Position numbers and translations under genes: made by a program. Below are positions 3,195 to 50,369 of a DNA stretch of 64,000 nt, in pieces (the first letter of the stretch is position 1; each line of letters starts with the position of its first letter). The stretch is from Lytechinus variegatus (lineage: Eukaryota; Echinodermata; Echinoidea; Temnopleuroida; Toxopneustidae). The stretch covers positions 31,471,292 through 31,535,291 of the forward strand of contig NC_054753.1 in NCBI RefSeq assembly GCF_018143015.1. Direction: 5' to 3'. The notes under the pieces are model-generated. The model made no database searches. It was given only the letters and a program-made list of their open reading frames with translations, and was not told the origin of the DNA.

Positions 3195-5105
3195 TGAATT
3201 GAATTGAATTGAATTGAATTTATTACAGAACGTCACCGGCAATTGCCAACATTTTGTTCAAAACAAGAAAATATATACATAAACAGATAAACAAAGACAA
3301 AATAGTATTTTTTTGTCAAACAAAAACAAAATCAAAACAAAATATAACAAAGCAACTTATATATAAAAATATACACTATAAACATAGGCATTATTCGGGT
3401 ACTCATTTTAACAATGAGTAAAAAAGAAAAAAAAAAAAAGCTGATGTCCAAGAGAGGACAAGGAAAACACAAGGAAAGTGGGAGAGGAGAGGGAAATAAA
3501 GAGGAAAGAAGTTCGAAAATAGAGAGGACGGGAGAGAGGAAGAGTGAGAAGAATGGCATCATCACATGTAAACTTATTGTGTAAGAATATTGCGAGTGTG
3601 TAAATTCAAAGTGTTTGCCGGTTGATATTTTTAGTACTCAGAATTCCCCCCTAATATTAATTATGTTTTGGACAAAAGAACAAAATAATTTAATTAATGC
3701 ATCAGTTTCCAATTTCATGATGTAAATAAATTTTTCCTGGTACTCCATTTCAGAAAACCTAATATTAAGGGTACTTATCTTTTCAAAAAAATCTTTGCGC
3801 AAATCATTATATTTATTACATTTCATTATAATGTGAAACTCATCCCCCACCAAATTCAAATTACAATCCTCACAAAATCTCAGGTTAGATGGTATCTTCT
3901 CCGGTCTTTTGTACCTCCCTGTTTCTATTGGTAGATTATGAGCGCTCAGTCGGAGCTTGGTTATATTTTTTCTCAAATTGACATTGTGTATTGAACATAA
4001 ATAATTTTCTTGCCTTATATTGAGTTTGAATTGCCTAAAAGTTCTTAGTTTATTTCCTTCCCTACTGTCCCTGTCGTTAAATAAATCTAATTTAAACTGT
4101 TCATCAAATCTCCGTTCCAAGGATGTTTTGCATATTGTAATAAATTCTTTTTGGGAAATTGGTATATTTTCTGGATCGAGTATGGGGGTGTCATTTTTCC
4201 GACAAATATCTAATATGTTAAAAATATCCTGAATTGTCTTAAGCCAGCAGTTGTTTCCGTTATTCAATAGACTTACATTTTCTACAAAAGCTTTGTAAAC
4301 CAAACTATCTTCGTCCATATTACGTATTCGAATCCAATATTTAAGTATATTTATTGCAATTTGGATGACTTTTGGATATCTACCAATTTCAGCTGTCGCT
4401 GCTAAGTTACTGCATTTGCGGTTTACCCCAAGAATATATTTACAAAATTGAATGTGCACCTTTTCAGATTCATGTTTAAAATATAGCCCTGTTTTCCCAT
4501 CAATTAATTGTAGATTTTTTCCATGTCTATAACATTTGTACCCCATATTTCAGATCCATAAAGTAATATCGGCTGTATCGTTGCATCGAAAAGATGCAAC
4601 AAGGTTTTAGTGCTTGGAGTATAGGAACCAAAAGATTTGTACAATTTGAACAATGCTCTTCTCGCTTTATCAGCTAAATCCCTTGCGGCCACTTTAAGTG
4701 ATCCATTATTTGCGAAAACAATACCAAGATATTTCATTTCCTTAACAGTGCATAGTATTTCTCCATTAATTTCAAATGAAACCTGTTCGTTTGATCTCCC
4801 TGATTTTGAGCACACCATAATCTTAGTCTTAGATACATTTATGTTTAGCATCCAGGATTTACAGTATGTGGTGAATTTATCTAAACAGTGTTGCATACCT
4901 TTAGGGGATTTCGACACAATAACGAGATCATCAGCGTACATTATACAATTTAGTTCTTTATCAAAAAGTGTTACTGGATCGCTTACTGATGTATCAAATA
5001 TATTAGTTATGTCATTAAGAAATAAATTAAATAAAGTTGGACTAATTACGCAACCCTGTTTTACTGGTGCAATCACTTGTGCTCCCTCCATGTTTGTCCT
5101 GCATT
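3195..5105 (-). mobile_element. 5'-truncated non-LTR retrotransposon (LINE), antisense to PRDM2
   Basis: Minus-strand sequence carries the 3' half of a LINE polymerase, followed by an AT-rich 3' UTR and a terminal pentanucleotide tail read on the + strand as GAATT repeats at about 3195-3220. Such short tandem tails are typical of several LINE clades. The copy begins abruptly inside the reverse transcriptase, as expected from incomplete target-primed reverse transcription. It is inserted in antisense orientation in the presumed first intron or upstream region of PRDM2. Confidence 0.85.
3638..5091 (-). pseudogene. LINE reverse transcriptase fragment, frameshifted
   Basis: Two minus-strand ORFs (5091-4504 and 4546-3638) together make the second half of a LINE polymerase. 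The first contains the reverse transcriptase palm: QGCVISPTLFNLFLNDI, then the catalytic YADD box (YADDLVIVS), then KMKYLGI-like and LYGSEIWG motifs of the palm/thumb. The second carries the thumb (FCKYILGVNRK) and a C-terminal zinc-binding-like region (CEDCNLN...H...C). The ORFs are in different frames and join within 4504-4546, so the copy is frameshifted. The endonuclease and the fingers are missing. It is a dead copy, but its long open frames suggest a fairly recent insertion. Confidence 0.85.
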
Positions 5106-21500: not shown

Positions 21501-24500
21501 CCAAATTTGGCACTTCCGAACTGGACCGAACCGAACACAAATGCTTGGTTCGGTATAAAATACCAGGCACGTTTTTTGCTATTGATGTCAGTTGAGATCC
21601 CATATGGGCATTTTCACGGCGTTACACGGCACAATTTTACACACCTTTCATTGTGTGTATGACTATCTCTAACAAATGATGGGAGATTGCTTTTTCGCAT
21701 ATACATGTATTTAAATATAAAATAATTAACATTTTTATTGCTTAGTTATTAAGCGCAATAAGAATTCCACTCAATTTTTTTTTTATTACAGTACAAAGCA
21801 TTGGCCTCGTCTTTGAATCAATTCTTATCAATTTCAAAATGTTTATTAACATGAATTTATTTTTTTTCTTCATTAAATGGGAGGACATTTAAAGCTAAAC
21901 TCGTTATAATAGTGGGTGAATGCGTATATGGTAGTAATTGATCATATTTGTTTTTCATTGAATAAAAGAAAATAGTCAAGATATAAATACCTTCCTCACA
22001 AGTGACAAATCAATGGTAAAATTTCTATTTCACCTTCTGAAATGTCCTAAGAAATGAGAATAGAAATAGAATTCTAATTAACAGAAAATATCAAAAATCA
22101 AAGCAAAGCAATGCCATGAAGGAGTTTCGGGGGGGGGGGGGGGTGGCGCTTCCATTGACAACTGGATACCATGTGTGACCAAAGAAACCTGTAAAAAGGA
22201 TCTCTTTTTCAAGATAGGGCATGTTAGGTACGTAATGTAATATTACGATGTCAAAAATGCTTGAATAATTAAAAAAGGTTATATACATGTATTTTGCTAG
22301 GAAAGCTACATGTTTATGGTCCAATTTGCGAGGGTATAAAAAGGCTATACTTTATAAAGGATGGACTTTTTGCATCAACACATCTTTAGGGAGATGGGGC
22401 GGTCCCGGGAATAAGTTGTTTGTTTGTTTGCTTCTCTGATGTAATGACATACTGTACTGGAAAAGGATTACTGCTAATGCTGGGGCTGTTACTGTACATG
22501 TTTAGGGGGTAATGTTAATGTTATGTTACCAATTCTTGTTAAGGGTAGTGTTTCACATGCCAATACTTGTTAAGGGGTTCCTTTTTTAGAACATGGAAAA
22601 TACTTGTTTAGGGTGCTTTTCGAAACCCCATGTTCACGCATTGTATCCACTTGTCAATGGAAGTGGCCCAGCCCCCCCCCCACGCATTCGGGAAATAGTT
22701 GATCTAGAAGTATTTGGCCGTAATCAATCGTAGTTGTAATCGGTCATAATTGTTTTATATTTAATAAAAGAAAATAGAGAAGACATAAAAAAGTCAAAAG
22801 CAAAAGACAAAAGGTCAAAGCAAAGCAATCATGATGGCATTTGGGAAATAGATGATCTGGAAAGTAAAAACAAAACAAGGTGCACTTTGCTGCTGTTATA
22901 CTGGTAAAATTCACATTCTGAATATGAAGTGTTCTTCCAAAGTCAATATCAGTTTTGTCCTGAATGATCCATGCTGGTGATTTCACAACTGAAAGTGCAT
23001 AGTACAGTCCCATGTACTAATTTTCGTGCTGAAAATGTGTTTGACGTCACTTACTGTAGATCTTTAAGGACTAAGAATGCACTGATAATTTATCTTCTTA
23101 GAGTAATTAATTGACCATATTAAACCACTTTTAAGAAAATATGGACTTAGGAAATCATATCATATTATTTGGAAAATGAATTTTACCAGTTTAATAGCAG
23201 TTGAGTAGAGATTCTGTCTCATGGTTCAACATTCCTGATCAACAATCTCTCAGTCGGAATAGCTGTGTTCGTTATGACATTGTAATCAATCACAATCATA
23301 TATACATTAAATAATCCTGAAAAAAAATATTCTGTTCATTGAAATTCTGTTTCTATCATCATTCTCTCATTTTCTTTTTTTCCTTTGGTAATTTTATTAA
23401 ATTTGAAATGAAAATATGAGTTTTACTACTATTTTTAACAAAATGAATAAAATAAATTTATGCAACAATTTTTATAACCATTCGTTTTTAAAAACAAAAT
23501 TTATTTCAAGTATGTGACAGACATTGGTTACAACTAATATTACATGGTTTAGGGCTAGCAACCTTTTTAAAAAATGTTTTTGAAACTTATTTAGTCATAC
23601 ATTGCTGAACCCCGAACCAAACCAAAGTTGGGAAGAAAAAAATTCCCGAACTCTATTGAACTAAACCCAAACATTGGGCCTGACTAGCAGCACTAATTAC
23701 CACAGTTGTTGATGACTCTGAATTTCTTATTAATGCATTTCTTCATTTCACTGGTCCAACAGTCTTCCTTCACTGGACAGTTCATGTTAAAAAAAATTTG
23801 GTATGAATCGGCCCTAGGAAATTAAATAACTTTCCCATCCTGTAAAACCTGATGATGCAATTGACTTCCAGATAAGGAGATGATCAGAGATTAAGATAAA
23901 ATATGGTTCCACTCCCTTGCATGACTAATCAGAGTCAAATGTGAACTTTGACCATGATATGGGTAATTTACTGTCTTAAACATCAGGACCATCTTAAGAC
24001 AAAGGGAAGTGATTGATTATGAAGCTCATTTTCATGATTGATTGTATTGCTTATTATGTGAAATCTGTTTTGAAATCAACAGAATGATGAATTTATAAGC
24101 GCTGTGTTACAGTTCCTTTATAAGTGGTAATTAAGAGGATGTTTGTTTTCATCTTTGTTGGAAAATGAATAGGGGCATGCGCTCCCCCACATGAATATTT
24201 ATATTGAAAGCAGATAGAAAACATATACATTTACTGACAAAATTATGTTTTTATTTTGTATAGTCTACTCATTAATGTTATTATTTTTTTATTTAGATGG
24301 TGACAGCTATGATATGCAGATGCCAATCTTGGAGAAAATGGAGACATCAGATATTGTCCCATCCCAGCTGGACACCAACATGTCTACAGAGTCAGAGAAC
24401 AGAGCCAAGGTACCAAGTCACCTTGATGTTATGGGTCATGATGAGATGGATGACAAGGTTGCAGAACCACCTCTCATCTCTCCCATCTATCCTTCCAACA

Positions 24501-27500
24501 GCCAACACTCAGCCAACTTCTCCTCCATAACAGCTGGGGTTGACATAGGTGGTGTTGGAGATAGCAACATTCAGATCCAGGAACCTGATATCTCATCCAG
24601 TGATGCCACCTCCCACTATATGGCAAGTTCTGAAGAAACTATGGAAGGACATGTGGACTCCACCTCAATCACTGATTCAAAAGACAATGTGAAAGGTGTT
24701 GTTGCTAAAAAGAAGAGCAAAGCGGATTTGAAACGTCAGCTTAAAGGTCAGGGTGGTGCTCCAAAGAAGAAAACTAGGGTTGGCCAAAAGATAGTGGGAG
24801 CACCAAAGTCTCAGAGGTCTGTGACGATGATGGAAAAGGATAACAAGATACCAGTAGATGAAGATGGGAATAGTGTCGCAGTGATTGGACCTGATTGTGT
24901 CATTACATTTCCTGATGGAAGTGAACTATTCGAATGCCAATTTTGTCCAAAGAGATGTCGTTTTCCCAACGGCCTCAAATTACATCTTAAGCTGAAGCAC
25001 CATGTTATGAAAATCACAGTGGAAGGTGTTAATACAACAAAGTGGGGAAAAGGATTAGGACCTGATGATATCAAAAACAGAAAGAAAGCAAAAGTAAAGA
25101 AAGAGGAAGATAAAGTGAAAAAAGACAAACTAATTCAGGAAACTGTTGATATTGTAAAGACTCCTCCAGAGGAAATGAAAAAGCCTCCAGTCTCTTTGTC
25201 TGCTAAGAAAAGTCCAAAGAACACTAAAAAGGGACAGTTCAACTGTCACCTATGTAGCAGGACATTTATGTATGCAACATGGAGGGAGAAACACTTGCTG
25301 AGACACAAGGTTGAAGGGAGTAAGGAAATGTTCCTCTGCCCTGAATGTCCAAGGAGGTTTGTTACAGATGGAGACTTGACAAAGCATAAGCTCACCCACA
25401 GATCACTTCCTCAGGATCTAACTACAGAAAGTGAATCAGATGTTCCTGTTCAAGGGCCAGGCCAAGAAAATGCTGTGGAACTCCAGATAAATAGTCCAGG
25501 TGATGAAATAGATAATGGTGTTGCATCAGAAACATCTGAGGCTCCAGTAGTGAAGAGTCCAGTTCAAGATGTTCATTCATCTGTGACGACGTCTTTTGAA
25601 AGTGCTGATGGGACTGACAAAGGAACATCTGATGATCAGGATGTAGCAAGGAGACGAACCATTACCAACAGGAAAGGTGCTCTGAAGAAGGTTGCTTCAT
25701 GCAAAATATGTGGAATTGAATTTGTGTCCTCATCAAATCTCCATCGGCATCTTAGGAAGAGGCATGGACTGAATCTTGTGAAGAAACAAGGACCAAAGTC
25801 ATCTGGAGAGAGTGATGTCAAAACAGAAGGTATCCCTGATGAGGAGAAAGAATCAACAGCCAGTATGAAAGCAGAGGTGATGAATAAGCCTCTTTCTCAA
25901 GAAAGCTTGTTAAATGTTCCCATAGTGAATCCATCACAAACAAAGGGGCACATGAAGACAATGGCCAATATGACTAGGATGATCAGAAGGAAGCATGCTA
26001 CTGCAGTTCTTCAGAGCATGATGAAAGAGAAGAAGCTTGGTGGAGAGGACTCAGTAGGTGACCAAAGCAAAATACGAGCCAAGCTGCATGCTGCATTGAA
26101 ACATGGAAAGAATGCAAAACGCAAGCAAGGTTTTAAGAGGATTGAGCAAGTTGCTTCCCTCACCGGTCTTACTGGTGAGCCATGCCACACTGAAATACCA
26201 AACCAAATATGTCCTTGGCAGAGCAACGTAAAACCGCATCCCTTCATCCCTAAGAAACCACCTACCCCACAGAGTGACCTGTTAAGTCCAGGACCTTCGT
26301 CCAGCAATATTGAAGTCTTGGACCTAAGAGTGAAGAAGCCTAGGACAGATACCTCTCAGAAGCAGAATACAACTCTATATATCTCGGCAGATTCATCACA
26401 ACCTTTGGATCTATCATGCCATTCTCGTCCAGTGGTGCAAATCCCCAAGTACCAGGTTACTCGAAAACAAACTCCTACATCTCCTGTTGCATCTGCCTCT
26501 CCTGCATTCACTAGTCATCAAGAGGTAAAGACAATAACAAGATTTAATATAACCCCTCGCATGAAGTCAACAGGTTGGAGATCTTCTACTTTGACCACTT
26601 CTTTGGAATCTGCAGATCTTGAGAGGCCAACCAAGTTTTCAGTCCTGGATGCAGCCATCACATGTAATGTTTGTGAGCTTCCTTTTGATTCAATGAAGCT
26701 CCTAACCCAACATGTGGTAGCCCATGCAGAGGACTATCCTTACAAGTGTGAGTTTTGTGTGAAGCTCTTTGAGACAACAGATAGTTTGGCATCTCACAGG
26801 TATGACTTACACAGAGTTGGCAAGATGTACTGTTGCTCCGAGTGTCAGCAAGAGTTTGCCTACCTTTCAAATCTCAAGCAGCACCAAGTAGATATTCATT
26901 CAGATCACATGTGTTCGTATACAGAGCGGGGGCCTGAGGAGATCAGACCACAAAATTTCACTGACCCCACAAAAGCCATACAGACACCACCGATCCTACC
27001 AGAGCCTAGAGAAAGGATATCCCTCATTGCTCATGAAATGAGCAAAGTGAGTCCTTCCAAGTTTGGTCGTTTCACCTCGACCCATATAGCAGACACCAAA
27101 AACACTCCTCGAAAGAAATCTAAGAAAAAAAAAGATGTTCCGTGCAATCCTCAAAGACATCATCCATTCGCCCATGCACGAGAGATCGGATACCTTAGTA
27201 CCCTACCAGATGGCAGTGTTACAAGTGGAAAGACTGTAAGCCACTTCGAAATGACTACAAATAATCGCTGCACCAAATGCGCCAAAGTATTTTCCAGTAC
27301 TGCTGATCTGCATGTACACATCATGGAGTGTGCTGCTGCTAATGTGCCAGGGAAGCAAAAAACCCCTGTCAAGACTCCTGTCAAGACTCCTGTCAAGACT
27401 CCTGCAAAGGTTGCTGACAAAAAGAAGCTGACCCAGGAAGAGAATAAGCAAAAGAATGCCAAGGTCAGGAGGATCAGGATCCAAGCTGCTAAGAGGAGCA

Positions 27501-28906
27501 GAAGCAGAGCCATTCAAAAAACCAGTGAGAGTGAAGAGAGTGATGCAGCCCAGAAGCGGAAGAGAGCTCGTCCTGGACTCAAGATGTACAACCCTCTTAA
27601 TCATACAAGGAGAAGGGCCAGTGCAAATATTGTGGATGTCCATGCTTGCCTTGGCTGTGGGAAACAGTTCCACTTCATCAATGGTCTGGAGAGGCATATG
27701 AAGCTATGTCCAAATAAGGATAAGCTCTTTAATAAGAACACAAATCCATACTATGCTCCTCGTAATATGAACCATCAATGTGCCTACTGTGCTCGCCAGT
27801 TTGTCTACCTCAGAAGCCTCAAGAAACATATCTCAAGCTGTCCTTCCAGGCCACCAGATGCTCCCACCTCTGTACCATCCCTGATTGTTTCCTTGGCTGC
27901 TGCGGCAACATCAGGAGAGTCCGTCACAGTTTCTACTGCATTCTCCCCAGCTACCACCGTTACTCCTTCAACTTCTGCCTTCACACCTATCCCTGCTACT
28001 AATCCTAGTTGTGCAATAACAGCCAAGACTGAAATCCCCCAAAAGGGTTCTTCACTAGAAGTTACCTCAGATATCCTTAAGAATAATGTTTCTCTCGAAG
28101 CAGCTACTAAAACAAATGATAATTTAGTCAAGGATGAGGTGCAAGGTGTCGTCTCAACTGTAGGTGGGGAATCTTCCATTTCAGGAACTCCAAGAAAAGC
28201 AAGGAGAAAGAGGAGGAGGTTGGATCCATACAGCAAGAAGAAGAAACGATCCAGCTCACCAAGGTCAAGGCAAAAAATGGAGATTGAGGTAGAGGACGAG
28301 GATTATGATGTGGAAGGTGATGAATATGAAGATGGCGGTGATGAAGGAGAAGAGAAAGAGATGATACAGATAGATGCAGAAAGCAGTCTAGATAAAGGAA
28401 CTTGTGTAAAGGTAGAAGATAAGGCGCAACAAAAAATAGAAAATGGTAGAGAAGAGGCAAATGGGGACTTAAAAACAATAGAGGAAAATGATGCTGATTG
28501 GAAGAAAAGAATTAACGAAGACCAACAGAAAATGAAAGAAAATATTAAAATTTGTGAGACAAAGGAACACATCATAGAAAACAAAGAAAAGATAAGTTCA
28601 TTGCAGCATACTGGTAAAATCTTAGTGGACGAGAAGAAAGATACAGACAACTGTACAGAGCTTAAAGAACCTGAAAAAGCCAAAGACAAACAATTGGACA
28701 AGGAAGTGAGTTGTGTTGCTTCTGATGTCACAATGAAGGAACGGATGAGCTGTAAGAATGATGCAGAAATGAATTGTACAAGTGAAGGTCCATCAGGAAA
28801 TGGACAAGAAAATAAAGACTATGAGCTTCTGAAAGAAAATGAGGTAGCAAAGTGTAGCAGAAAAGAAAATGAAGAACAATTTGAAACAGATAATAAATGC
28901 AGATGA
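18514..28906 (+). CDS. prdm2: PRDM2/RIZ orthologue: PR/SET-domain zinc-finger protein (5 coding exons)
   Basis: Coding exons are 18514-18535, 18888-18991, 19494-19649, 20396-20564 and 24297-28906. They join in phase to 5061 nt (1686 residues), close to the roughly 1700 residues of vertebrate PRDM2. Residues about 6-115 form the PR (SET-like) domain: GVWAKKSVRKG, FGPFIGEK, SIDASEPSKANWMRYVKSA, EEQNM, NIYYRTLRPIAAGEELMCWY. Zinc fingers follow at about residues 362, 465, 496, 618, 938, 966, 995, 1141, 1266 and 1310; the last three end in Cys rather than the second His. IRPQNFTDPTKA just after the central triplet is a near-identical PRDM2 hallmark. A CtBP-type PLDLS lies near residue 853. The C-terminus is acidic and Lys/Glu-rich. 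Known PRDM2 is a nuclear H3K9 methyltransferase and tumour suppressor; activity here is inferred. The N-terminus before the PR domain is only about 7 residues, shorter than in vertebrates. Confidence 0.93.
18888..18991 (+). CDS. prdm2: PRDM2 PR-domain exon (first half)
   Basis: Acceptor ATAACAG|GA, donor GAG|GTGAGT, 104 nt. Encodes GVWAKKSVRKGRTFGPFIGE and onward to the conserved SWE (residues about 8-42), matching the first block of the PRDM2 PR domain. Confidence 0.93.
18992..19493. other. PRDM2 intron
   Basis: AT-rich intron between PR-domain exons, with a G-rich patch near 19257-19268. Nothing else recognised. Confidence 0.8.
19494..19649 (+). CDS. prdm2: PRDM2 PR-domain exon (centre)
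   Basis: Acceptor CCATTAG|ATC, donor AGG|GTATGT, 156 nt and exactly 52 codons. Encodes YSIDASEPSKANWMRYVKSA, then EEQNM and NIYYRTLR, the core SET-like beta-sheet and helix blocks. Confidence 0.95.
19650..20395. other. PRDM2 intron
   Basis: AT-rich intron; no element or coding signal recognised. Confidence 0.8.
20396..20564 (+). CDS. prdm2: PRDM2 PR-domain exon (end) and acidic linker
   Basis: Acceptor GTACAG|CCT, donor TCAG|GTAAGG, 169 nt ending in phase 1. Opens with PIAAGEELMCWYKNLSP, the last PR-domain block, then a Ser/Glu-rich linker. The single overhanging G completes GAT with the next exon. Confidence 0.95.
20922..21366. mobile_element. Terminal-inverted-repeat MITE in PRDM2 intron 4
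   Basis: The left end TACCGTGTTTACACATGCAT is matched inversely by GATGCAGCGTGTAAACAAGG at the right end. The interior repeats the motif TTCTGCATCGGCTCGCGG several times in both orientations. No ORF of note. Confidence 0.7.
21466..23697. mobile_element. Possible inverted-repeat element enclosing family A copy 4
   Basis: Left end TAGTGCTGTAGCC and right end GACTAGCAGCACTA are approximately inverted. AACCAAACCGAA-type repeats lie next to both ends (21485-21560 and 23605-23660). The interior includes family A copy 4. Boundaries are approximate. Confidence 0.4.
22128..22681 (-). mobile_element. Inverted-repeat element, family A copy 4 (opposite orientation)
   Basis: Poly-G plus CTTCCATTGACAACTGGATA at the left and GTATCCACTTGTCAATGGAA plus poly-C at the right. 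The interior order (ACATGCC/ACGTAA block first, AAGTATTGG block last) is reversed relative to copies 1-3. Confidence 0.75.
23698..24296. other. End of PRDM2 intron 4
   Basis: AT-rich intron sequence up to the T-rich tract before the exon at 24297. No other signal. Confidence 0.7.
24297..28906 (+). CDS. prdm2: PRDM2 terminal exon with zinc fingers
   Basis: Acceptor TTTATTTAG|ATGG; open to TGA at 28904-28906 (4610 nt). It holds all the zinc fingers: a first finger (FECQFCPKRC...), a pair (FNCHLC..., FLCPEC...), one SSSNLHRHLRKRHG finger, the central triplet CNVC/CEFC/CSEC, and three C2HC fingers. Between them are basic linkers, a PVKTP tandem repeat at about 27362-27405, and an acidic patch near 28285-28365. 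The ORF extends upstream to 24245 through the intron, but phase and the acceptor place the exon start at 24297. Confidence 0.95.
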
Positions 28907-40751: not shown

Positions 40752-43004
40752 CAGAGGCGTCGATCAGGGGGGGGGGGCGATCGCCCCCAACAATGAAAAT
40801 ATTGGGGGGGGGCAAACATATCGTTCCCCCCAATAATTCCAAATGTGTGCAAAAATAAAATAAGATTGCAATGTTACACCGAAAGCAGCAAGCGAGATTG
40901 ATATACACAACTCATTCTTTATTTAAACTCGTGTTCAAAATCCGCTTTTCTGATTGGAATATAAAAAAATTTCATCATTTCTGAAGCAAAAACTCATACT
41001 TTTCATGACTAAATAGGTAAATAGAATGTCCCCTTTCAATTCTAAACCTCAAATAACTCCTGCTTCGATTCGCAATAATCCTTTGTTGGATATATATCTT
41101 GTTCTTTATCAAAAAGTCCATTATACTGTCAATTTGTTTCAGATCAAAATATAAACAATTTCAGCTCGTGCTTCGCGCTCGCATCTATTGTTATTTTAGA
41201 CACACATCTTAAACATTGGTACCAAAAATGCTTATAAAATATTAAGCTTTCAGGTCAGAATATAAAGAAATTTCAGCTCACTCTCGGCACTCGCATGATC
41301 TGTGTAGTGAGATATGTATCCTCCTCATGAGTTACTACAAACAGGTACCTTTTCCTGTTTTCAGTTTAGTATACTAACAAATTTCAACTCGCGCTCGCAT
41401 TAATTTGTTGGTGAGATATGTGTCTCGTGTCTCTTTCTCATAAGTCATATGAGTCATATATATATATATATATATATAATGTGTGTGTGTGAGTTTGTTT
41501 GTTTTGTGTGATCGAGGGCCTTTGAAACGTTGAGTCAGGAATTTGCCCCCCATCTGAAAAATGAATTGACGCCCCTGCCAGAGGCGTCGATCCTGGGGGC
41601 AGGGGGGGGGGGGGGCGATCGCCCCACCAATGAAAATATTGGGGGCAAACATATTATTTTGCCCCCTCCAATAATTCCAGATAGATTGTAATGTTCAGCA
41701 AGCGAGATTGAGATACACAACTCGTTCTTTATTTAAAATCGTGCTCAAAATGTCCGCTTTTCAAATTGGAATATAAATTTTTCATCATTTCTGTAGCAAA
41801 AACCCATACTTTTCATGATGAAATAGGTGAATGTAAATGTCATGTTTTCAGTTCTAAGCCTCAAAAGAACTCCTGCTTCGATTTGCAATCATCTTTTCTT
41901 GGATATATATCTTGTTCTTTATCAAAAACATCTATTAAACTGCCATTTTTTCAGATCGAAATATCAAAATTTTCAGCTCGCGCTTCGCACTCGCATCTAT
42001 TCTTCTTTCAGATACAAATCTTAATCATTGGTACCAAAAATTTAGAAATTCAAGTTTTCAGGTCAGAATATAAAGAAATTTCAGCTCACTCTCGGCACTC
42101 GCATGATCTGTGTAGTGAGATATGTATCCTCCTCATGAGTTACTACAAACAGGTACCTTTTCCTGTTTTCAGTTCAGTATACTAACAAATTTCAACTCGC
42201 GCTCGCATTAATTTGTTGGTGAGATATGTGTCTCGTGTCTCTTTCTCATAAGTCATATGAGTCATATATATATATATATATATATAATGTGTGTGTGTGA
42301 GTTTGTTTGTTTTGTGTGATCGAGGGCCTTTGAAACGTTGAGTCAGGAATTTGCCCCCCATCTGAAAAATGAATTGACGCCCCTGCCAGAGGCGTCGATC
42401 CTGGGGGCAGGGGGGGGGGGGCGATCGCCCCACCAATGAAAATATTGGGGGCAAACATATTATTTTGCCCCCTCCAATAATTCCAGATAGATTGTAATGT
42501 TCAGCAAGCGAGATTGAGATACACAACTCGTTCTTTATTTAAAATCGTGCTCAAAATGTCCGCTTTTCAAATTGGAATATAAATTTTTCATCATTTCTGT
42601 AGCAAAAACCCATACTTTTCATGATGAAATAGGTGAATGTAAATGTCATGTTTTCAGTTCTAAGCCTCAAAAGAACTCCTGCTTCGATTTGCAATCATCT
42701 TTTCTTGGATATATATCTTGTTCTTTATCAAAAACATCTATTAAACTGCCATTTTTTCAGATCGAAATATCAAAATTTTCAGCTCGCGCTTCGCACTCGC
42801 ATCTATTCTTCTTTCAGATACAAATCTTAATCATTGGTACCAAAAATTTAGAAATTCAAGTTTTCAGGTCAGAATATAAAGAAATTTCAGCTCACTCTCG
42901 GCACTCGTATCTGTGTATTGAGATCCGTATCCTCCTCATGTGTTACTACAAACGGTCTTAAACAGGCACGCTTTTCTTGATGGTGAGATACGTGTCTGTG
43001 TCTC

Positions 43005-43870: not shown

Positions 43871-43903
43871 ATGTCATCATCTGAGAAGATTATGGATTCA
43901 GAG
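43871..43903 (+). CDS. Candidate first coding exon of the BRICHOS gene
   Basis: ATG at 43871 begins MSSSEKIMDSE and ends at a GAG|GTGATT donor (43904) in phase 0, matching exon 2. Support: the CCAAT/TATA pair upstream and the right distance. Weakness: the donor is not optimal, and the frame stays open past it into the purine tract. Confidence 0.45.
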
Positions 43904-46900
43904 GTGATTTCATTTGACAATCATCTAGTCAAAAATGTTTTTCTTCTTTTTATCATGGATTTCGAACATTATGTGTTTATTTTGGAAAGTAGATTTTTTT
44001 TTTGCGGTGATATAAAAGAGAGAAAAAAAGGAAGAGGAAGAAGAAAGAGAAGTAAGAAGAAGAGGAGGGAGAAGAAAAAGAAGTCAAAGAAGAAGGAGAA
44101 GAAGAAGAAGATTAAAAAAAAAGAAGAAGAACTAGAAGAAGAAAAAGAAGAAGAAGAAGAAGGATGGAAAGGAGGAGGAGAAGGAGGAGGAGAAAAAAAC
44201 GAAGAAGATATCATTATGATACTATTCTTTTCACCTTTTGTTTTTTTCTGGATATTCTTCTCAGCCAGCTAAACTTCATGCGATCTCATCCATCATTGTC
44301 TCTATCATTGTTACCGTCGGGGTGATCGTTGCTACAGCTATCCTAGCCGGGGGTGACTACGGAAGATGCTCGAACTCGTGCATGATCACGGATGGAGGGG
44401 CAAGTACCAAAGCTATGACTTCTAGCAAGGTAAATAATGTTTAGGAAATTATGTGACTTTATATTCACACGATGCCTACAAGGAAGATATATTTCTCTCT
44501 AAATCAATGAAATATGAAACATAAGACTAACAACGAGATGAAAAAAGCAATGAAACAAACACAATATCTCGACTGTCAATTCTTCGAGGTTAGAAACCAG
44601 ATGCCATATAGGCAGAATATTTTCGTTATTATTATTAATATTATTATCTTTGTTATTATTATCATAATTATCATCATAATCACCATCATCATTGGATGTA
44701 TAACGCTTTTATTGGCTTTTTTGTTCAATTGAGGTGGCAGTAGATATATGGATTAAAGTCAAAGTGTTCTAATCCTTTCTCTAACGAGTACTGAAATCTT
44801 TAGGAAAATCCATATACTTTGTAAGCTCTGGATCCCTTTTCAAGAACAGTCTTTTGAGATGACCGCACATCCAGGTGTTATAAAATATAAACCATGCATG
44901 GCGTTTTAACATAACACCAAATTGTGTTAAAAATAACATACAAAGTGTGCGATGATCATGTTCATGTAACAGTAATCTAAAACCATGAATTTGAACACTG
45001 GTGTAAAATGCTCGTTGTGACCTTGTGTTAAAACTGGGGGCCGTTACATAAAGCTGTTCGTAAGATAAGAGCGACTTTAAGAACGACTGGTGAACTTCTC
45101 TTATACGCGCTTAACCAAATCGCAAATGAATATACCATGTACCACAAGGAAGGATCACCAGTCGTTCCGGGAGTCGTTCTTAAAGATCAAGTCCATCCCA
45201 GAAAAAGTAGATTTGAATGGATATAGAAAATTCAAACAAGAATAATGCTGAAAACTTCTTCAAATTCGGATGGAAAATAAGAAAGTTATGACATTTTAAA
45301 CTATGGCCTATTTTCACAATTTCTTTTGTTTTTTATTGTTTGAATTATGTTCAATAGTTCATTTTTTACGGATTTAACAATCATGACCATCTTGTTTGAA
45401 CCACAAAATGTTTAAGCAATCGAATATAATTCCACATGTTTAGGGAGGAATGAAACTTTGTATGACAATGAGGAGAAAATTCAAATATTTCATATTTCAT
45501 ACAATAAAATACAAAAGAAATAGTGAGTGGGTGATGCCATCAGTCCCCTCATTTGCACACTGACCTGGTTGAGCATAACTGTTTCGTGAAATTTAGCAAA
45601 ACTTTAAAATGTCATAACTTTCTTATTTCCGATTCGATTTCGATGATATTGTCGGTTTTATTCTTGTTGATCTTTCTCTTTCTCTTCAAATCATCTTTTT
45701 GTTTGGGTGGACTTGTCCTTTTAAGTCGCTCTTAATTTACGAACAGCTTTATGAAACACCCCCAGGTTTGAACACACCACTATTTGTGCAGTGTAAAATA
45801 ACACCGTTGTTATAAACTTAATAATGTATATAGGCTAAAGATGTGATGATCATGAAGGGTGATGAAGAGATTGGTATGCAGACAACATGGTATGACTACA
45901 GCTCAAACACTTTACAGGCTGAGACACCATCGGGAACATCCGGGGATTTCCTCAATTCAACTATTGTCATTGATTACAACAGGGTAAGGAAAGGCGTTAA
46001 TCCCGGCGGTCGGGTGGGGGGGGGGGGGGTATTCTCCCTTCTAGTTTCGATATTTTGTACAGCATCGTAGAGTCTTCTCGTCCCCCTGAAGTGACTAGAA
46101 ATTCGAAGAAAGTACGTGCTATACGTATAATGAAGACATGTCATCAGCATGATCAGGGAGGGTGGGGTGAAGGAATTATGAGACAGAGAGAAAGATGGAG
46201 GAAGGAGATGATACATAAAATAGTGAGAGATAGAGGGAGAGAGAGGGGGGGGGGGGACTCGGGGAAACAAGCATATATAAGCACCGGGAAGACAAGTTTA
46301 AATTAAATAATGTGTATACGATAATGATCTTTTCACTAATCAATTAACAGATTCATGGATGAAGTTTCTTTAGGCATAATTATGCAGTTCATTCTTTAAT
46401 GTTATCATAATTTTTTTCAGGAAGTGATTTTTATCAGTATCCCTGATCGACACTCATGCTATGCATCTTCTCTGAGTGGGGATATGAAAGAAATGTCAGA
46501 TCGATCAATTGAATTTATGGGACGTGAACAGGATCATGAACAGGTAAAGAAAATTACATGTAGTGTTAAACGTATATAGGCTCACGGTCAAACACAGTTT
46601 ACAGAATTAAACAAATATGTATCAAGGAATTAAAAAAATGGAACCAGTAAAATTATCATGTTATAAAAAGCGTTATAACTGAACGCTCAATTATACGGTT
46701 CCCCTGTTGTTTTCATGTTCACAAAGATATCCAATGTCATTTGAAAAATGTCCAGTTATCAATATGTGCCGTATAAACATAGTCCCAGCATATGCTAAAT
46801 AGATGCGCCCATTTTGAAAACTTTCTAAAAATATGTACTTTTCCAAAATATGCTGTGATATGGTGTACAACACTTTTACGAACTGTCTGGAATCTAGTTG

Positions 46901-49900
46901 CCCTTAGTTTTCATTTTAAAATATTTGTATAGACGTTTCTTCTGGTACGAAAATGTACATACATTGCAATCAACATTGCAATATAAAATCTTCGACTAAC
47001 AAATAACGTACAAACTTAACAGTAAAATCAGGAAACCAAAAAATAGCCAATAGTAGATATTGACTTATAAATCACTCCAGCGAATATAAGCAGTCCTAGC
47101 CTAGTTTTATTTTTCTGAATTGAAGATTAAGAAGATAAAGTAAGAAGTGAAAAAATGGAGAACAAAGAAAGGAGTAAAGACATCCCTACACAAACCCACA
47201 TCCTCACTCTTCATAACATCCCTTCTCCCTTCCTACCAGAGCATCCCCCCACTTCTGCATTATGACTTTTAAAAGCTTAAGAAACTACAGACAGCCAATG
47301 ACGAAACAGAACTCTTTTCATATCATTTTTTTAATCATTATATTGCTAGCATAGTTATGATCATGTCTTTTATCTTTAAGATTGTATAGATTACTCGTGT
47401 ACACACATATCTTTCTATTTATTTTTTATTGTTTGCTTGTAAATATAACAGTTCTAATTAGCTTCTTTTCTGGACCCCATGGAAGACCAGCAGTGTCGTG
47501 CCTGTCACAGCTGAATATGGGTTATCCAGCCGATTCCATTTTGTTGTTTCTCTCACTCTTAGATATGTATGTATTTGTCTTTTTCAATGTATTCTGGATC
47601 GGAAAAATAAATACTATACTATACTATACTTCCTTTTAAAGGATGTTAGTATTTATGTTTAGTTAGTTTACTCCAACGATGTTGTAGGACGAAGCCTGTT
47701 CATCGATCAAAGTAGAAATTTCTATTGTTGCTCTCCTTCAGACAAAATTAGATGCGCTAGAGAATTAGCAAGTGAAAAGACTTAATACCAAAAATTGACA
47801 TGCTGGTTCTCCCCTCATACATTTTGTACATAGTTTTTGTGGCTCAACTTACCCCAGAAGGTGGCTCAAACTTACCCCATATATGGGGCAAGTTGTGCCA
47901 TTTGACATCGTTTTTTTCAAAGGTCACGATGACTTTAAGTGTGGGGATAGAAAGATATATATAGGTGGAAAATATTTCAGAAGAATTAAATTTCAAGGCA
48001 AGGTACTTATTTCGACAAGATTGTTAATCATACCAATTCTAACATACAAAAAGCAAAAACTGTCACAACTTACCCCACCTTCCCCTATTCATGGAAAGGC
48101 CCCAGTCCGAATGTGCAATGAAGTGGAAATGGTTTTTAAAAGACACTCTGTTAACTTTAATACTAGACTTGCCGATACGTTGGACGTCGTTTTACAAAAG
48201 CCTTCTCTCGAATGTTAAGAGTTGTTTTAAATATGCTGGTGGCTTGTTTTGGAATAGCCTTCCATCTGATATTCAAATGCGAATTCTCTTGAAGTTTTTA
48301 AACGTATGTATAAATGCCATTATTTTAAAGATGTCGTTTAATGAAATGATATGTTTTTTTTTCTTATTGACCGACCTTCTTTTATTTCCTTCTCCCCCCT
48401 CCCCCCTCTTTCTCTTACCTTCCTCTCTCGTCTTTCTTCTTTCTTTTATCCTGTTCTTCTTTTAGGTCAGACCACTTATAAATCTTTTTATATTGTGAGC
48501 CATTGTAGTTTACTACTTTTTAGAAATAATTTTTATGCATTGTATATATTTTGTGTGTGTTGTCAGGACCATGATGTAAAACAGCCTCGGCTGATCATGT
48601 TTTATCCTTATCCTGACTAAACATGTTACAATAAAATAAATAAAAATAAAAAAAATAATTTTTGAATAATGTTGGTACACTCTTTGCTTGACTTGATCAT
48701 CAAGTCAAGCAAAGAGTGTACCAACATTATTCAAAAATTATTTTTTTTATTGTCTTGATCTTCCTCATTTCCTCTCAGAAAGATATGTTCTCTTTGATAT
48801 CTGTAAGTCCAAAGTCCCCGTAAATTTATTTATTTTGAACTTTTTGCTCCTGTCAGGTAAACAATATATTTTTAGATGTCGATGCAACGAAAGAAAACCT
48901 ACTCTCTCCCACTTCTATCATTTGAAACTGTTGAACATGCTATAGCGCAAAAGCATGTTGGCAAGTGGGCCACCATTTTGAATATCGTATAGAGGCGATA
49001 AAAGCAGAAAGCTGTTTTTCATAGGCCAAGTGCCTAATTATTTTGTGTTTTGTTGTAAACAAACAGGGCCCTGTCTTACAAAGAGTTGCGATTTATCCGA
49101 TCAAGCACAACTATGGACGGCCAGCCACGTCAACATCTCAATGCAAATTAGGTCAATTCTAGATAGGATATATAATTATTCTCTCATACATCATCCTCTT
49201 GGAGATTCAGTGTGATTTCTTTTTGTTTACTAAGGACATTGTGCAAATTTCTTGTAGAAAACTTATGTTATGGATGATTTTCTATACAGTTGAGATTGAT
49301 TTGATCAATCGTAACTCATTGTAAGACGGGTCCCTGATGTCTATGTTATTTTGTTTTATATGTTAGACATAATATGCCAACGTCATTTCAATCTTACTAT
49401 GTGATCCGTTATATCATGGATGTTTTGTTATCTTCATAGCCGTACGCAGACATTTTTCGCTGGGGGAAGGCAGCATGGCATGCGTAAACTTTTTCGAAAA
49501 AACTCAAAAGCGAGGGAGCGCTTTTGTCTTTTTAAAGTGGAATCAAAGGATTTCTTGCATTCTTTTGTTGAATTTTGTGAAAATTTTCAGTAAAAAAATG
49601 CAAGTTTTCAAAATTTCGGGGGGGGGGGGCAACTGCACCCTGCTGCATTCGGCCATGGTTATGTTTACAATGGATGAAGATCAATAAAACATAAATTAAA
49701 ACATAGTGGAAAAACGACTCCACCATTTACCCGAAATCATGAGCCTCCCATTTTTTCTTTTTGAGAGTTTATTCGAATTTAGGGCTATGTATTTCTACTA
49801 TATTCAACTAGTGTTTCTTTAACCTCTTGGTTATTTGTATTCTTTCAACTTTGAAATACTAAACAATACAAACACTTGAAAATAAAAGACGATATTATTA

Positions 49901-50369
49901 TGTTTCTACTTCGTTTTTCCAAAATGAGCATAAATCACTGAAAACAGACCAAAGTTATGTAAATCCTGAAATAATACCATGTAACTATAGTACCATTCTG
50001 AATTGGGATTTTCTGGGTTTACTTTTCAAATTACATATACTAAGTCTTGGTCTGAAAAAAATTATATTATTTCATGACCTTTACACATAATCATGCTTTT
50101 CGTTGTTGTTTTACCCCCCCCCCCCCCGATCTATTTAGGCAATCGACATAACAATGCACCGAGATATTGACATGAACTATAGAACGGTTGGCCTGATTCC
50201 TGCTGGATACGTAAGCAAAGCCAACGGACCAATCATACGCGCTCTTTGTATGGGGGCTGACTCCTATTGGACGAAACCGAGAATAACGTCAAGCGAGATT
50301 CGTCGTCGGGGAATCGGAATTTCTACCCGTATTTGTGTTTTCTTTATCTGCTTCAATTTGAGTTTCTAA
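43871..50369 (+). CDS. BRICHOS-domain type II membrane pro-protein (5 exons)
   Basis: Exons 43871-43903, 44265-44429, 45834-45983, 46421-46543 and 50139-50369 all join in phase 0 to a 233-residue protein; the first exon is the least certain. Residues 1-16 are a short cytosolic tail, 17-39 a hydrophobic segment (ISSIIVSIIVTVGVIVATA) without a signal-peptide cleavage pattern, then a luminal linker and a BRICHOS domain (about 85-201). Visible BRICHOS hallmarks are the conserved Asp in STIVIDYNR (D113) and the cysteine pair C129 (RHSCYASSL) and C194 (IRALCMGADSYW), 64 residues apart. N107 (NST) is a potential glycosylation site. After the domain comes IRRR then a 19-residue tail with CVFFIC. Known BRICHOS proteins (ITM2B, pro-SP-C, chondromodulin, annelid antimicrobial precursors) chaperone a beta-prone peptide; function here is inferred. 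Confidence 0.75.
44019..44212 (+). repeat. About 190-nt polypurine tract in BRICHOS intron 1
   Basis: Nearly pure A/G sequence made of GAA, GGA and GAAAA units from 44019 to 44200, ending 50-60 bp before exon 2. Potential triplex (H-DNA) former. The Lys/Glu-rich ORF across it is low-complexity. Confidence 0.9.
44265..44429 (+). CDS. BRICHOS gene exon 2: membrane segment
   Basis: Acceptor TTCTTCTCAG|CCA, donor AAG|GTAAAT, 165 nt. Encodes PAKLHAISSIIVSIIVTVGV and on through the hydrophobic helix to a Cys-containing luminal stretch (GRCSNSCMITDGG). Confidence 0.75.
45036..45766. mobile_element. MITE with ~40-bp inverted termini in BRICHOS intron 2, hosting a second MITE
   Basis: CATAAAGCTGTTCGTAAGAT near 45056 and the inverted AATTTACGAACAGCTTTATG near 45733, plus GAGCGAC/GTCGCTC pairs, define the ends. 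A nested inverted-repeat element lies inside at about 45187-45722. Confidence 0.75.
45187..45722. mobile_element. Nested fold-back MITE
   Basis: AAGTCCATCCCAGAAAAAGT at the left is inverted at the right as TTTTTGTTTGGGTGGACTTG; AAGAAAGTTATGACATTTTA recurs inverted as AAAATGTCATAACTTTCTTA. Only AT-rich loop between. Confidence 0.75.
45834..45983 (+). CDS. BRICHOS gene exon 3: start of BRICHOS domain
   Basis: Acceptor TATATAG|GCT, donor AGG|GTAAGG, 150 nt. Encodes the beta-rich lead-in MQTTWYDYSSNTLQAE and the conserved STIVIDYNR block. Confidence 0.8.
46421..46543 (+). CDS. BRICHOS gene exon 4: first conserved Cys
   Basis: Acceptor TTTTTTTCAG|GAA, donor CAG|GTAAAG, 123 nt. Encodes EVIFISIPDRHSCYASSL and a polar linker; the position of Cys and the preceding I-P-D match the BRICHOS pattern. 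Confidence 0.8.
46544..47383. other. Start of BRICHOS intron 4
   Basis: AT-rich intron; no exon or element ends recognised. Confidence 0.5.
47384..47635 (+). mobile_element. LINE 3' tail with ATACT pentanucleotide repeat
   Basis: GGACCCCATGGAAGACCAGC with GTGTCGTGCCTGTCACAGC, then AT-rich sequence ending ...AAATAAATACTATACTATAC, a short tandem tail as used by CR1-type LINEs. Coding part absent. Confidence 0.55.
47835..48086. mobile_element. Small repeat with AACTTACCCC motifs
   Basis: CTCAACTTACCCCAGAAGG, GGGGCAAGTTGTGCC and CACAACTTACCCCACCTTCC form direct and inverted copies at the ends. No ORF of its own. Confidence 0.5.
48090..48644 (+). mobile_element. CR1-like LINE 3' fragment (family B, copy 2)
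   Basis: The reading frames give VFKRHSVNFNTRLADTLDVV, then SCFKYAGGLFWNSLPSDIQ and NSLEVFKRMYKCHYFKD after frameshifts: the C-terminal signature of a LINE polymerase. The 3' UTR shares TCAGGACCATGATGTAAAAC with the minus-strand copy at 35.95 kb and ends in AAATAAATAAAA. Confidence 0.75.
48645..48751. repeat. Perfect 107-bp palindrome (53-bp arms, 1-nt centre)
   Basis: 48645-48697 is the exact reverse complement of 48699-48751 around C at 48698 (centre GACTTGATCATCAAGTC). It starts in the A-rich tail of the LINE. No mismatch was found on manual comparison. Confidence 0.9.
49064..49336. mobile_element. MITE with CTTACAAAGAGTTGCGATT termini
   Basis: AGGGCCCTGTCTTACAAAGA at the left is inverted as CATTGTAAGACGGGTCCCT at the right, with GAGTTGCGATT/AATCGTAACTC just inside. 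No coding. Confidence 0.8.
49435..49665. repeat. Dispersed poly-G-containing repeat in BRICHOS intron 4
   Basis: Starts around CCGTACGCAGACATTTTTCG and ends with a poly-G tract plus CAACTGCACCCTGCTGC. No coding; boundaries approximate. Confidence 0.4.
50139..50369 (+). CDS. BRICHOS gene terminal exon: second Cys and C-terminal peptide
   Basis: Acceptor ATCTATTTAG|GCA (preceded by a 14-16 base poly-C tract), phase 0, stop TAA at 50367-50369. Encodes NYRTVGLIPAGYV, IIRALCMGADSYW with the second BRICHOS Cys, then the tail after IRRR. Confidence 0.8.
   Translation, partial: AIDITMHRDIDMNYRTVGLIPAGYVSKANGPIIRALCMGADSYWTKPRITSSEIRRRGIGISTRICVFFICFNLSF

Follow-up and report, generated by a model that had tools for sequence, protein, structure and literature searches.

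A tandem sea urchin gene family that probably encodes BRICHOS membrane proproteins with a releasable hydrophobic C-terminal peptide

A 64,000-nucleotide stretch of the Lytechinus variegatus genome (the window; positions 31471292–31535291 of contig NC_054753.1, denoted C14) raises the question of whether one of its genes, gene A, encodes a BRICHOS protein from which a short C-terminal peptide is released. A reading made from the sequence alone (the sequence-only reading) had interpreted the product as a BRICHOS precursor with a candidate client peptide, and this interpretation is supported by a match to the BRICHOS profile and by the conservation of the tail in the paralogues. Judging from the sequences, it appears fairly probable that three tandem sea urchin genes encode BRICHOS membrane proproteins releasing a hydrophobic C-terminal peptide. 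The assembly searched comprises 869.6 Mb in 33 contigs.

Structure of gene A and its paralogues

Gene A consists of five exons on the forward strand (43871–50369 of the window), all in phase 0 with AG acceptors and GT donors, and encodes a protein of 233 residues; the 233-residue model proposed earlier, ending in EIRRR followed by the tail, was reproduced at the same positions. Exon 1 (43871–43903) encodes MSSSEKIMDSE, the presumed cytoplasmic N-terminus, and is the weakest part of the model; in a scan it was the sole candidate within 1.5 kb upstream of exon 2, and it is identical in the mirror copy A′ described below. Exon 2 (44265–44429), conserved in the paralogues B and C, contains the transmembrane segment (residues ~15–40) and the juxtamembrane C46 and C50. 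Exon 3 (45834–45983) encodes the linker and the start of the BRICHOS domain with the invariant Asp (D113, 45972–45974), and the domain continues in exon 4 (46421–46543), which carries the first invariant Cys (C129, 46457–46459). Exon 5 (50139–50369), translated as AIDITMHRDIDMNYRTVGLIPAGYVSKANGPIIRALCMGADSYWTKPRITSSEIRRRGIGISTRICVFFICFNLSF up to the stop, encodes the domain end with the second invariant Cys (C194, 50247–50249), a spacer, the basic triplet RRR (50301–50309), and, directly behind it, the 19-residue candidate released peptide GIGISTRICVFFICFNLSF (50310–50366; Cys codons at 50334–50336 and 50349–50351). The stop codon lies at 50367–50369, and AATAAA or ATTAAA starts 39 bases past it.

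With a 19-residue hydropathy window, residues 15–40 are strongly hydrophobic (up to 2.87), and the C-terminal 19 residues form the only other stretch above 1.4 (value, 1.64). The product is probably a membrane protein of type II, an orientation suggested by its layout. The GT dinucleotides of exon 5 were judged by eye without a splice-site scorer, and none past C194 resembles a good donor; a downstream exon replacing the tail was rejected on this by-eye absence. A strong-looking donor (TAC/GTAAGC at 50211) precedes C194, which would be deleted by its use. Out-of-frame splicing before the tail of gene A looks unlikely.

Upstream of gene A, two near-identical open frames on the forward strand (41712–42185 and 42518–42961), ~800 bases apart, form a local direct duplication, and intron 4 of the gene contains a 53-base perfect inverted repeat whose arms are 1 base apart (48645–48751). 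The window also includes a 1562-residue open frame with C2H2 zinc fingers (24218–28906, forward strand) and a reverse-transcriptase element fragment (4504–5103, reverse strand; RVT_1 in Pfam, E = 8.8e-22), whose adjoining frame (3638–4549) had no Pfam match. An Rfam search of the window gave no matches.

Whole-genome translated searches identified at least 22 places with the gene A protein and at least 23 with paralogue B, and all but one of the places listed for each query fall in two mirrored stretches of C14. One stretch (31.515–31.568 Mb, forward strand) contains gene A and its tandem paralogues B and C, the latter two located just beyond the window, within which no paralogue of gene A was seen; the other (32.104–32.173 Mb, reverse strand) contains the mirrored, near-identical copies A′, B′, and C′. 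A and A′ retain all five exons intact; four phase-0 exons with intact splice sites were assigned to each of the genes B, C, B′, and C′; a search for exon 1 of B and C within 6 kb gave 0 and 4 candidates, respectively, with no pair among them. Aligned blocks of >1,500 bases between the mirrored stretches are 87–99% identical, and the exons differ by 6 of 702 nucleotides in A/A′, 13 of 651 in B/B′, and 10 of 660 in C/C′. The two stretches are either the arms of an inverted duplication, separated by roughly half a megabase, or the result of the assembly retaining a second haplotype. Bindin, which is not known outside echinoids and their close kin, was matched by Pfam in this assembly (E = 4e-66), which supports the echinoderm setting of the sequence-only reading. 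It is a single-copy gene in sea urchins but has two loci on one contig here (C13:18.60 Mb and C13:24.95 Mb), so that the assembly may retain second haplotypes. The family contains at least three genes, and six are possible. The remaining listed place (C14:8269284) resembles the domain end (GVIPDGFLRLNTSPVVALHCANFETYWVE) and then runs into a C-terminus rich in Thr that lacks the cysteine tail; by eye, the frames upstream of this distant relative (within C14:8260001–8290000) resemble a membrane segment and the start of a domain.

Relation to the BRICHOS superfamily

In a Pfam-A search, the whole gene A protein matched BRICHOS with E = 0.017 and 15.7 bits, residues 108–201 being aligned to positions 5–91 of the 91-position profile, and the trimmed 102-residue domain matched with E = 0.0023 and 18.6 bits. 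The assignment to BRICHOS by the sequence-only reading is thus borne out by the near full-length extent of the match, but not by its score, which stays under the curated cut-off of PF04089 (25 bits). The profile was not matched by B, C, or a hand-made consensus, nor by single exons of gene A. As a control, BRICHOS was matched in none of eight shuffles of the trimmed domain in which the Asp and both Cys were kept in place. When PF04089 was searched across the whole genome exon by exon, nothing was found at E = 0.001; six weak matches (E = 0.3–4) were all below the cut-off, and the five inspected by eye were unlike BRICHOS. Searches of the PDB by sequence, with single and profile queries, gave chance-level matches only, including no solved BRICHOS structure and no ITM2 sequence, and NCBIfam gave one weak, irrelevant match. 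An AlphaFold prediction for exon 5 alone had a mean pLDDT of 46.7 and was uninformative.

According to Hedlund 2009 (PMC2751770), only three residues are invariant in the superfamily, D144, C160, and C219 of ITM2A. Their counterparts in gene A are D113, C129, and C194, and the same columns are invariant in B and C. The Asp–Cys spacing of 16 in gene A equals that between D144 and C160 of ITM2A as given there, and is 14 in B and C. The same text gives lengths of 12–33 residues for the hydrophobic segment, 24–105 for the linker, 83–104 for BRICHOS, and 29–149 for the C-terminal region; the corresponding lengths in gene A (~26, 63, 98, and 32 residues, with borders that we set from hydropathy and the Pfam match) are within these ranges. 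The domain is acidic in all three paralogues (net charge, −4, −5, and −7), as opposed to the neutral or +1 tail. Although the formal Pfam threshold is not reached, it is highly likely that the gene A protein belongs to BRICHOS.

Conservation of the tail and the basic site

The C-termini of the paralogues read GGRKRR followed by SASGSVRICIFGFCFNISF in B and GGRKKR followed by QASSTFSIQICIFQFCFSFSF in C. A basic or dibasic site is thus present directly ahead of a C-terminal peptide of 19–21 residues in A, B, and C. The site had been described earlier as lacking the P4 Arg; this is true of gene A with its RRR, whereas both paralogues have the strict convertase motif R-x-K/R-R (RKRR in B and RKKR in C). 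In all six copies, the tail behind the basic cluster follows the consensus [RQ]-I-C-[IV]-F-x-[FI]-C-F-x-x-S-F-stop, both tail Cys are present, and the residues S, I, C, F, C, F, S, and F behind the site are invariant together with the position of the stop. The net charges of the tails are +1, +1, and 0, which agrees with the low positive charge noted previously and falls short of a cationic peptide. An N-x-S glycosylation sequon lies inside the tail of A (50355–50363) and B and is absent in C and B′.

In neutral simulations anchored at the stop codon, the A/B tail, with 32 of 57 nucleotides changed and 10 of 19 residues shared, showed an identity that was reached in none of 20,000 runs; for A/C (31 changes; 8 of 19 residues shared) and B/C (19 changes; 11 of 19 shared), the fractions of simulations reaching the observed identity were 0.001 and 0.0285, respectively. 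Both Cys were kept by chance with probabilities of 0.014 (A/B), 0.019 (A/C), and 0.134 (B/C). In exon 5, dS for A/B and A/C is saturated in the domain, the tail, and the core. Over the same two pairs, dN is 0.36–0.37 in the domain, 0.60–0.68 in the tail, and 0.38–0.47 in the 11-residue core, all of these values coming from few codons; A/B has a core dN of 0.38 at saturated tail dS, and B/C a core dN/dS of 0.12 over 11 codons. Constraint is much weaker in the 11-codon spacer (dN, 1.29 and 1.53; A/C dS, 1.17). Since the framework of the tail is kept while synonymous sites are saturated, the tail is evidently coding and under purifying selection. All three exon-5 differences between B and B′ change amino acids, two of them within the tail, and A/A′ and C/C′ have no difference in exon 5; the B/B′ pattern speaks against strong constraint, with the reservation that it comprises just three changes.

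The exons of B and C are 90–95% identical in DNA, and their introns are unalignable save for one 66-base match out of order. In 30-base windows of exon 5, the identity of B and C is 93–100% in the domain half, 83% at the border, and 63–70% in the tail half, and dS rises from 0.03 in the domain to 0.71 in the tail. The drop at the border includes synonymous sites and is therefore not just a matter of relaxed selection on the protein. Gene conversion among the domain exons, sparing the tail, would explain this pattern. The refuting condition set by the sequence-only reading, an unconserved tail beside a conserved domain, did not come about, the framework being kept in two paralogues at saturated dS, although the tail diverges faster than the domain between B and C.

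Three other explanations for the tail and its surroundings were weighed. An origin of the tail in the chance translation of T-rich 3′ sequence is hardly conceivable: its DNA is indeed 47% T, and among random stop-free 19-codon tails of the same base composition 4.35% contain C-x4-C, but a stop-anchored tail is kept in three paralogues at saturated synonymous divergence, with an A/B identity unmatched by the neutral simulations. This explanation was rejected on the conservation of the tail and is effectively refuted; as C-x4-C by itself is unremarkable, it is conservation rather than the motif that carries the case for the tail. Very unlikely, too, is a look-alike secreted or membrane protein outside BRICHOS that took its tail and site from an unrelated peptide-precursor family. 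The sub-threshold Pfam scores of gene A, the lack of any match for B and C, and the Asp–Cys spacing of 14 in these two would suit such a protein; the near full-length alignment and exact Asp–Cys spacing of gene A, the clean shuffle control, and the second Cys, single hydrophobic segment, region lengths, and acidic domain, all of which fit BRICHOS, argue for membership instead.

It is also conceivable, though unlikely, that the tail is never released and stays in the ectodomain for good as its C-terminal strand or as a hydrophobic plug, with a small disulphide ring and with the basic cluster as an exposed linker. Such a role would be compatible with the mere RRR of gene A, with a tail hydropathy (1.64) that passes the 1.4 threshold over 19 residues, and with the two C-terminal cysteines that are conserved in ITM2A and most BRICHOS families according to Hedlund 2009 (PMC2751770). 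However, B and C have the strict R-x-K/R-R at the same place even though the nearby spacer diverges strongly from that of A, and their tails have diverged at synonymous sites next to a near-identical domain, as might be expected of a module in its own right.

Proposed processing and comparison with known precursors

The predicted precursor has a short N-terminus, one transmembrane helix, a linker, a divergent BRICHOS domain, a convertase site, and a hydrophobic peptide of 19–21 residues. In the secretory pathway, the BRICHOS domain, closed by the disulphide C129–C194, would bind the β-prone, Phe-rich tail and prevent its aggregation, and C223 and C228 would close a six-residue ring while the tail is held. 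A furin-like convertase would then cut behind RKRR, RKKR, or RRR, and the freed peptide, which would be neutral or +1, cyclic, and lipophilic, may act on membranes or on an extracellular receptor. Release, ring closure, chaperoning, disulphide pairing, orientation, and extracellular action are all inferred. C50, C129, C194, C223, and C228 are invariant in A, B, and C, and C46 is missing from B and C and replaced by Gly in A′. Pairing of C129 with C194, the superfamily pair, and of C223 with C228 in the tail ring is likely and leaves the membrane-adjacent C50, a candidate for a dimer bond. The six-residue tail ring may resemble the rings of urotensin II or of the vasopressin type.

Because of their net charges, the tails are unlikely to be classical cationic antimicrobials, and the function of the annelid peptides cannot simply be transferred to them. 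An antimicrobial role is not implied, and the tails may have a membrane-active or signalling role. Tentatively, the family may represent BRICHOS-chaperoned, released cyclic peptides that are neither Bri23-like nor cationic antimicrobials; their Phe-rich, nearly uncharged ring would serve as a lipophilic signal or a non-cationic membrane agent, the domain remaining uniform between two paralogues and the tail diversifying in a fixed framework. If so, echinoderms would gain their first described peptide-effector branch of BRICHOS, and a nearly uncharged aromatic ring in sea urchins would point to the combination of BRICHOS with a small disulphide peptide as an ancient plan among animals that is not bound to the killing of bacteria. 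The family would also offer a compact natural candidate chaperone–client pair, with three client variants, for studying the hold of BRICHOS on aggregation-prone peptides.

Peptides located behind BRICHOS are already known from marine worms and mammals; in the sea urchin family, the predicted precursor logic is as known, and the animal branch and the peptide chemistry differ. The closest layouts are those of annelid nicomicin and HfBRI-18. Nicomicin from Nicomache minor is a C-terminal peptide behind BRICHOS and a dibasic site, with a Rana-box-like loop; in nicomicin-1, the Cys24–Cys29 disulphide closes a six-residue loop in a solely aromatic and hydrophobic region. It shares with the sea urchin tail the extreme C-terminal position behind BRICHOS and a basic site, and the six-residue disulphide loop, but is longer, at 33 residues, with an amphipathic helix at its N-terminus and four Lys, and is made with a signal peptide, whereas the sea urchin tails, with 19–21 residues and a charge of 0 or +1, leave no room for that helix and belong to a transmembrane precursor. 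For Heteromastus filiformis, PMC10745061 describes precursors of BRICHOS, dibasic site, and peptide, 5 of 13 being transmembrane (HfBRI-20, -23, -25, -28, and -54), and an 18-residue peptide, HfBRI-18, with a C-terminal six-residue disulphide loop. The three-part precursor, transmembrane in some cases, and the ring size of HfBRI-18 are similar to those of the sea urchin family, a likeness by description only. The peptide parts of HfBRI are described there as enriched in positive charge, except for HfBRI-75 and -91 with no pronounced cationic property, and are thus mostly cationic, in contrast to the net 0 or +1 of the sea urchin tails.

Among the mammalian proteins, ITM2B/Bri2 is a membrane protein with BRICHOS from which furin cleavage near the C-terminus frees a 23-residue peptide (Bri23). 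The ITM2 (Bri) proteins resemble the sea urchin family in being membrane proteins with a furin-type site before a C-terminal peptide, the strict motif being found only in B and C, and, according to PMC2751770, in the two conserved C-terminal cysteines; by the same description, the two are set apart by the spacing of these cysteines, 17 in ITM2A (C244 and C261) versus 5 in the sea urchin (C223 and C228). That text also mentions a ‘divergent group’ of two sequences, from an echinoderm and amphioxus, outside the named families, and describes no peptide for it; compared by description only, the sea urchin family resembles this group in its echinoderm origin. In PMC10608444, BRICHOS precursors are tied to polychaetes, and the sea urchin centrocins and strongylocins are given other propeptides. 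The sequence-only reading knew of no echinoderm peptide of this sort, and none behind BRICHOS was found described in the open-licence literature searched, as far as its accessible text extends.

The preproalvinellacin genes of Alvinella (PMC5431198) form a multigene family, some of whose members are arranged in tandem. They encode BRICHOS and carry the peptide in their last exon; the peptide is under purifying selection, and paralogues recombine with one another. These traits recur in the sea urchin family, in which recombination between paralogues is likewise suggested by the B/C pattern. In Alvinella, however, according to that paper, paralogues have the same peptide and differ in their BRICHOS part, the opposite of what is observed between B and C.
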